A DNA stretch of 5,311 nt from Gemmatimonadota bacterium. Its GTDB lineage: Bacteria > Latescibacterota > UBA2968 > UBA8231. How positions within the stretch are numbered: the stretch's first letter is position 1; each line of letters starts with the position of its first letter. The translations under genes were made by a program, and so were the position numbers. Shown in pieces: positions 2,977 through 5,220 of the stretch. The stretch spans positions 7,136 to 12,446 of the forward strand of contig PATE01000020.1 in the NCBI GenBank assembly GCA_002712305.1, written 5' to 3'. The notes below the pieces were generated by a model. It worked only from the letters and a program-made list of their open reading frames with translations, did not search any database and was not told the origin of the DNA.

Positions 2977-3569
2977 TTCACCATCTCCTTCTGGTTTCCT
3001 GTCTGCAGAACGAAGTTCGACAGCAGTTTTTTGCCCTTCTGACCCGTTAGCACCGATTCGGGGTGGAACTGAACTCCCTCCACGCTCAGTTCCTTGTGAC
3101 GCAGTCCCATCACCAGACCATCATCGGTCTCGGCCACGACCTCCAGACACTCAGGAACACTGTCACGTCGCACGATCAGAGAGTGATAACGGGTCGCTGT
3201 AAACGGATTCGGCAAACCCGAATAGATGCCCTGGCCGTCGTGCCGAATCTCCGACGTCTTGCCGTGCATGATGTAGGGCGCACGCTCCACGATCCCACCG
3301 AACGCCTGTCCGATGGTCTGATGACCAAGACAGACGCCAAGAATCGGGATCTGACCCGAGAATCGATGCACCAGATCGAGACTGATCCCGGCCACGTCCG
3401 GTGTGCAGGGCCCAGGAGAGATAATCAGACGCTCCGGCGCCAGTTCGGCGATCTGATCGAGCTCGATCTTGTCGTTGCGAAAGACCTGCAGGTCGGTGGC
3501 GCCGATCTCGCCCAGATACTGGACGAGATTGTATGTGAACGAATCGTAATTGTCTATCAGCAGGATCAT
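2973..3569 (-). CDS. trpG: Anthranilate synthase component II (glutamine amidotransferase)
   Basis: This 198-residue class I glutamine amidotransferase hydrolyses glutamine and passes ammonia to TrpE. Motifs: [11 protein letters not shown] (4-14), SPGPCTP (51-57, oxyanion region), nucleophile Cys80 in GVCLGHQ (78-84), HGK (102-104), YHSL (128-131), and the catalytic His169 and Glu171 in QFHPES (167-172). Length and start are typical of TrpG/PabA. The reading frame stays open upstream to an ATG at 3635 (22 extra codons). I reject that start because the family begins at [14 protein letters not shown] lies 7 nt before the ATG at 3569, and the extension is an out-of-frame reading of a duplicated junction that overlaps trpE. 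Its stop overlaps the trpD start. A PabA role with p-aminobenzoate synthase (shared amidotransferase) is possible, but the setting between trpE and trpD makes TrpG primary. Confidence 0.95.
2985..2990 (-). promoter_or_regulatory. Ribosome binding site of trpD, inside the end of trpG
   Basis: AAGGAG reads on the minus strand 8 nt before the trpD ATG. It lies within the last codons of trpG, as expected for a coupled ATGA junction. Confidence 0.75.
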
Positions 3570-3625
3570 CTTGCCACCTCGGTGCCAATCGGAGGGGAAT
3601 CGTGATTGTCTATCAGAAGAATCAT
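3566..3625 (-). CDS. 19-codon mini-ORF between trpE and trpG (chimeric junction remnant)
   Basis: This is a short frame with its own ATG and stop, translating as [19 protein letters not shown]. Residues 1-10 match the TrpG N-terminus except Tyr8 to His. Residues 8-19 ([12 protein letters not shown]) line up ungapped with the last 12 residues of TrpE ([12 protein letters not shown]), sharing D, S, V and R plus similar positions. Its ATG overlaps the trpE stop as ATGA, and its TGA overlaps the trpG start as ATGA. CGAGG lies 10 nt upstream. It has no room for a domain, so a catalytic role is excluded. I infer either a neutral scar of a tandem duplication or a translational relay that carries ribosomes from trpE to trpG. 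Whether it is translated is not known from the sequence. Confidence 0.55.
3577..3581 (-). promoter_or_regulatory. Ribosome binding site that decides the trpG start
   Basis: CGAGG reads on the minus strand 7 nt before the ATG at 3569, supporting the 198-residue TrpG over the longer reading from 3635. A diverged counterpart (CGAGG at 3636-3640) lies 10 nt before the mini-ORF ATG, as expected if the junction was duplicated. Confidence 0.65.
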
Positions 3626-5220
3626 CGGGACACATCCTCGTCCGTCGACGCCGAATCGAGAAAACTGGTCACCGTGCCCTCGTGCAGCCCACTGATACTG
3701 TCTCCACTTGGCGCGATCGAACCTCGCGTGGCCATCTCGACGGCCCGGAACAAGGCCATCGCCTTGTTGACCGTTTCCTGGTATTCGGCATCCGGATCGG
3801 AATCGGCGACGATGCCACCCCCTGCCTGGATGTAAGCGACCCCATCTTTCACGACCATCGTGCGGATGGCGATACACGTATCGAGATTTCCTGAGAAGTC
3901 GAGATAACCCACGGCACCTCCGTAGATTCCACGGCGGGTTGGTTCCAGCTCGTCGATGATCTCCATGGCCCGGATCTTTGGTGCCCCCGACAGCGTGCCC
4001 GCCGGATAGCAGGCAAACAAGGCGTCGAGTGCGTCCATCCCCTCCAGCAGTTGGCCACGTACGTCGGAGACGATGTGCATGACGTGGGAATAACGCTCAA
4101 CCGTCATCATATCCGTCACGCGGACCGTATCAAAGATTGAGACCCGCCCCACGTCGTTGCGGCCCAGATCCACGAGCATGACATGTTCGGAGCGATCCTT
4201 CTCGTCGGCGAGCAGTTCCTCTTCCAACCGCTGGTCTTCGGCCTCGTCCCTGCCGCGAGCACGCGTGCCAGCAAGGGGGCGCACCTCGAGGGATCCATCC
4301 TCCACTCGAACGAGAATCTCGGGGGATGCCCCAAGTATCTGCAGATCACCCTGCGTAATGTGGAACATATACGGCGATGGATTCACCGTTCGCAGAACCC
4401 GATAGATCTCGAAGGGATCGGCCTCGTACTTCAGCTGGAAGCGCTGCGCGAACACGACCTGAAAGATGTCGCCGGCACGGATGTATTCCAGGCAGCGCTC
4501 GACAGCGTCTGTGTACTGTTCGCGCGAGATGTTGGAGTGCACGGCGCCCATCCTTCGCCCCCCGGGCAGACGCGGTGCCGGTGTCAGTTCAGCCAACAGG
4601 TCTTCAACCTCGCCGATGCGTGCTTTGGCCTCGCCATAGGCCGTCTCGGCATTCTGGCCCTCCTCGACGCGCACATTGGTGATGAGCACCACCGTGTGGC
4701 GCAGGTTGTCGAAGGCGAGGACCGTCTCAAACAGGCCAAACACCATGTCGTCGAGACCCAGGTCATCTTCACAACTGTCGGGGAGCTCTTCGGCGAGGCG
4801 AATGCCATCGTATCCGAGAAATCCGACGGCACCGCCTGTGAAGCGGGGCAATCCATCTAGGTGAACCCCCTGGTGCTTGGCCATCAGTTGGCGAAGCACC
4901 TGCCGTGGGTCACCGTCGATGGTCTGGGTCGTCCCCGAGCGTCGATCTTCGATCGTCGCCTGCTGGCCGCGAGATCGGAAGATGATCGAAGGGCGGATTC
5001 CCAGGAAGGAATACCGTGCGGCGCGCTCTCCACCCTCCACACTCTCGAAGAGGAAGGTGAAGTCGCTCTTGGAGCGCAACTTGAGATACGCCGACACAGG
5101 CGTCAGCGTGTCGGCGAGGATTTCCTTAGTCACCGGAACACTGAGGCCACCGGCGGACAGTTCGGCGAACTGCTCGACAGTGGGTCTCAATTCGGTGGGC
5201 GATGTTGTCGTGTTCATCAT
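3622..5220 (-). CDS. trpE: Anthranilate synthase component I
   Basis: This 532-residue chorismate-utilising enzyme makes anthranilate from chorismate and ammonia delivered by TrpG; it is the committed and normally feedback-controlled step. The N-terminal domain carries the allosteric-site motif FLFES (56-60; Ser60 corresponds to the tryptophan-sensing Ser of LLES in other TrpEs). With NPSPYM (280-285) intact, tryptophan inhibition is expected. The chorismate-binding domain shows GASPE (297-301), [10 protein letters not shown] (314-323), DEKDRSEH (339-346), LVDLGRND (349-356), [10 protein letters not shown] (378-387), [11 protein letters not shown] (405-415) and [12 protein letters not shown] (465-476). 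NPSPYM and the tryptophan-site motifs favour TrpE over PabB. The start is uncertain: ATGs at 5220 and 5217 are adjacent, with only a weak AGG upstream, and a TTG at 5250 would add 10 unconserved residues. I chose 5220. The stop overlaps the ATG of a 19-codon mini-ORF rather than trpG itself. Confidence 0.96.

Follow-up and report, generated by a model that had tools for sequence, protein, structure and literature searches.

A 56-bp repeat across the trpE-trpG junction and the likely origin of an ATGA-flanked 19-codon ORF by tandem duplication

The stretch of DNA analysed here (the window, 5,311 nt) contains an operon with the gene order trpE, trpG, trpD, trpC and trpS, all on the minus strand. 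The gene trpE, for anthranilate synthase component I, occupies 3622-5250 in the list of open reading frames (ORFs) and matches the Pfam families Chorismate_bind (8.7e-98) and Anth_synt_I_N. The gene for the glutaminase of the same enzyme, trpG, lies at 2973-3569 (Pfam GATase, 4.5e-56), and its start is conserved in relatives. An N-extended TrpG from the ATG at 3635, in an ORF of 220 aa, was considered and rejected: this ATG directly follows the only purine-rich stretch available to it, and the relatives start at MIL or VIL. The tryptophanyl-tRNA synthetase gene trpS (161-1150) follows trpC in the same direction, and after it, at 1-135, comes the first part of a chorismate mutase-like ORF. Another species of the same genus, G001, has DNA collinear with the window.

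Between trpE and trpG lies a gap of 52 bases, and a mini-ORF of 19 codons (57 nt) at 3625-3566 on the minus strand bridges it. The mini-ORF, which was read directly from the sequence, joins a trpG head to a trpE tail. It is linked to its neighbors by a -4 ATGA overlap at both ends, one with the trpE stop (3625-3622) and the other with the trpG start (3569-3566).

The same region carries a direct repeat. On the minus strand, the hexamer CGATTC is found at 3658-3653 in the tail of trpE (LDS codons), at 3602-3597 in the spacer and at 3546-3541 in the head of trpG (YDS codons), in exact steps of 56 bases, and the junction is laid out as CTCGATTC, 26 bases, GATGATTCTTCTGATAGACAATCACGATTC, 26 bases and GATGATCCTGCTGATAGACAATTACGATTCGTTC. 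Elsewhere in the window there are 6 further copies of CGATTC. The ungapped match at offset 56 spans 3661-3597 and defines two units: copy A at 3597-3652, consisting of the trpE tail and a decayed copy of the trpG head, and copy B at 3541-3596, consisting of a spacer copy of the trpE tail and the working trpG head. The units adjoin head-to-tail without filler, the offset equals the unit length of 56, and CGATTC stands as a direct repeat at both ancestral breakpoints, with the third copy at the join. The trpG-head half is the strongest block, with 27/30 positions identical between copies A and B. The trpE-tail half, from the left CGATTC to the strong block, has 12/26 identical positions, which taken alone is barely more than chance (P ~0.02), and only 6 of its first 15 bases are alike. 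The spacing of CGATTC and the strongest block had both been reported in a preliminary description of this DNA, and both were reproduced here.

When the self-match was scored with +1 for a match and -1 for a mismatch, the top score in 3440-3760 was 29 at offset 56 (next offset, 7). A score of 29 was not attained in 400 dinucleotide shuffles, whatever the offset (mean 9.3, maximum 16); the repeat was not reproduced by shuffling. Over the whole window and offsets 3-399, this is also the strongest near-tandem match (29 vs. 13). Two points are weak, namely the low similarity of the tail half and the absence of the array from the TRF output. The position of the left boundary is preset by the right boundary and the offset, and the probability of an exact CGATTC there by chance is ~2e-4 from the base composition. 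The 56-bp repeat across the trpE-trpG junction is confirmed. Its weaker tail half is tied to the duplication event by the CGATTC that precedes the end of the strong block by exactly 56 bases, and by the likeness of the last tail codons, which before the stop encode DVSR in copy A, EVAR in copy B and EVSQ in G001.

In G001, the one other species of the genus that was compared, trpE and trpG meet in a plain ATGA overlap, GTATCCCAATGATC, without a spacer, as had been predicted for the ancestral state. The operons of the two genomes are collinear, with DNA identity of 75-79% in every gene (trpE, trpG, trpD, trpC and trpS), so that the comparison is orthologous. A -4 overlap is also found in the same family, as ATGA in G015 and G012 and as GTGA in G005 and G009, and in most or nearly all f3 genomes of the class that have separate trpE-trpG pairs. 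The overlap is the ancestral state, and the change ran from overlap to spacer. Other spacers occur, of 16 bp in G002 and of 48 bp in three species of genus g12 (L100, L106 and L110; family f4, same class). The 48-bp spacers are similar among themselves and unrelated in sequence to the spacer described here. A doubled trpG head was sought in 64 genomes of the phylum, and this genome alone has it; the trait is thus not a common one of the group. A different arrangement is seen in several genomes of the family belonging to genus g7 (G018, G020, G021, G022, G023 and G024), where a long open frame of 572-776 aa matches both TrpE and TrpG, and a second, separate TrpG-like gene lies nearby in the same direction, with 57-60% identity to the TrpG of the window.

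The trpG head allows the event to be dated relative to G001. Copy A has the base of copy B at each of the 7 sites that distinguish B from G001. At the 3 sites where A and B differ, B has the base of G001, and there are 0 sites at which A agrees with G001 against B; all three head changes against both B and G001 are in copy A. Judged by this pattern, the duplication is placed in the lineage of this genome, after its split from G001, and copy A is the copy that changed and decayed. Among its changes, the Tyr of the DNYDS motif has become His, as would be expected in a copy that is no longer read as TrpG. In the tail, copy B is about as distant from copy A (12/26) as from G001 (10/26).

These observations are likely to reflect a tandem duplication bounded by CGATTC. 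From an ancestral trpE/trpG pair with an ATGA overlap, a 56-bp stretch between two copies of CGATTC, one in the trpE tail and the other in the trpG head, would have been duplicated, most likely by slippage, to yield the ATGA-flanked 19-codon ORF with its putative relay to trpG. Replication slippage between the CGATTC copies would be the best mechanism, since it would account for the 56-bp offset, for where the boundaries lie and for the absence of filler. The preliminary description had interpreted the junction in the same way, and this interpretation is supported. Its further statement that the two copies then diverged passes over an imbalance: 17/56 positions differ, with 14/26 in the tails and 3/30 in the heads (Fisher p 0.0005), and a simple neutral model fits these small numbers poorly even if the tails are allowed to change at twice the rate of the heads (p ~0.016). 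Slippage by itself does not account for this unevenness, for which an unequal exchange involving a moderately diverged relative, conversion between the two head copies or selection on the copied head would each be sufficient. As a single mutation event with a neat consequence for the reading frame, the junction is well supported.

The unevenness would be explained in one step by unequal, out-of-register recombination at CGATTC with the operon of a diverged relative, which would join trpE and the trpG head of one lineage to the trpE tail and trpG of another; the tails, which vary fast between species, would then be far apart, and the conserved trpG heads 90% alike. We consider such an origin unlikely. 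Its donor would have to be closer than G001 because A is like B at all 7 sites by which B and G001 differ, and the Tyr-to-His change in A must be later in any case. The identity to G001 is also even from trpE to trpS, without a mosaic signal, although this argues only against a distant donor. The weakness of the tail block taken alone, above all in its first 15 bases, would also suit a copy of the trpG head only (~30-36 bp), with ~26 bp of unrelated filler before the working trpG. That reading is very unlikely, given that CGATTC is at the very position that a pure 56-bp tandem duplication would demand. Moreover, at the end of the tail, A, B and G001 are pairwise alike at 6-8/11 positions, with B keeping the GAG-GT codons of G001, and the filler has no other source: a second source of the spacer was sought in the genome and none was found, the junction and the spacer each giving a single match.

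Selection on the mini-ORF, as a ribosome relay or a regulatory ORF, may have left the copied head little changed, and this would add to the duplication account and not replace it. The contrast between head and tail, the two intact ATGA overlaps and the open frame are in its favor. It is nevertheless rather doubtful, since the mini-ORF occurs in one genome only, the invariant Tyr of the motif is His, and the RNA structure is not unusual: in RNA folding around the mini-ORF, nothing remarkable was found, with z of 0.7 to 1.7, less stable than the shuffles. An assembly artefact might be suspected in a draft genome of 146 contigs. Such an error is extremely improbable here, because the copies differ at 17 of the 56 positions, the junction is in the middle of a 47-kb contig with a single match in the genome, and a 6-base overlap is too short to join reads.

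Under the preferred reading of a CGATTC-bounded tandem duplication, the geometry of the mini-ORF follows from the length of the unit. The ORF is chimeric and has 19 codons because 56 is 2 mod 3: with such a unit, the frame of the trpG head in the first copy would stay open through the second copy's trpE tail and stop at the TGA there. In a simulation of the 7,140 possible units on this junction, the stop coincided with the second ATGA in 97% of the units whose length is 2 mod 3 and in 0 of the others. Under a loose definition, 1.48 Mb of this genome contains 139 short ORFs whose two ends both lie in start/stop overlaps, and resemblance to the head of the next gene is clear in the mini-ORF only (27/36; next, 19/36). 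The peptide is probably a by-product, and no sign of a function for it was found at this single locus of one genome.

The effect of the mini-ORF on trpG can be considered from what is known of reinitiation. In E. coli reporters, reinitiation declines once the gap measures some 20-40 nt, and little or none is left at 38 nt (PMC10666635). Because reinitiation is lost at such distances, a bare spacer of 52 bases should break the link between trpE and trpG. An upstream ORF needs no more than its last 15 nt for reinitiation (PMC10666635), so that the mini-ORF, with 57 nt, is long enough. We infer that the mini-ORF is translated and couples trpE to trpG as a relay: ribosomes ending trpE would restart on the mini-ORF and, ending there, would restart on trpG. 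Such a relay would keep the subunits of anthranilate synthase coupled despite the 52-base gap. However, trpG also has the Shine-Dalgarno-like site GAGGTGG at 3574-3580 on the minus strand, 4 bases before its ATG. The corresponding sites are GAGGA at 9 bases in copy A and GAGGT at 6 bases in G001, and the trpG site is better than both when compared with a generic anti-Shine-Dalgarno sequence. Since trpG has a good site of its own, relay coupling may be unneeded, and direct initiation at trpG may be an alternative to it.

In E. coli, trpD carries the trpG part. The E. coli trpE-trpD pair, the first described case of translational coupling (PMC12548453), is at a homologous position in the operon, and relatives of the present genome share the ATGA architecture; the junction described here differs in that a 19-codon ORF separates two successive ATGA overlaps. 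As a precedent, the mycobacterial interspersed repetitive unit (MIRU) comes closest; it stands at gene starts and couples by -4 overlaps (Supply et al., 1997, as described in PMC12548453). In both cases, a short ORF at a gene start has an ATGA overlap with the gene, so that expression can survive the insertion. MIRUs are repeated in the genome and apparently mobile, whereas the trpE-trpG unit is a single-copy local duplication with a single match in the genome. Another short ORF between two operon genes is mgtQ, between mgtC and mgtB of Salmonella, which acts via alternative stem-loops and acidic codons (PMC8092293); stem-loop structure of that type was not found by RNA folding at the mini-ORF. 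With short slippage duplications between microhomologies, the junction shares two head-to-tail units and a 6-bp direct repeat that is threefold after the event, but its unit spans a start/stop overlap inside an operon, and its halves are unevenly diverged. In a paper on how gene overlaps originate, the changes considered are point mutations and not duplication, and in the open-licence literature, duplication across an overlap was not found described as a source of coupled ORFs.

The junction is a readable case of the way in which an operon with overlapping genes may gain a spacer and a small ORF without uncoupling the two subunits of one enzyme. It may be asked whether small operon ORFs generally arise by duplication across ATGA junctions, in which units of 2 mod 3 make a pre-coupled chimeric mini-gene that is tolerated where other spacers are not, and whether this one has been kept as a ribosome relay. 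This broader proposal is quite unlikely to hold as a whole. As a single instance with no sign of a function, the junction itself carries small weight. The frame rule, a unit length of 2 mod 3, makes a simple prediction, and cases of it could be counted across many genomes. At other loci of this genome, near-tandem repeats about as strong as this one mostly have periods divisible by three or are of low complexity. Another near-tandem repeat in the same genome, at L195 4467-4577, has an offset of 68, which is not a multiple of three, and a score of 30.
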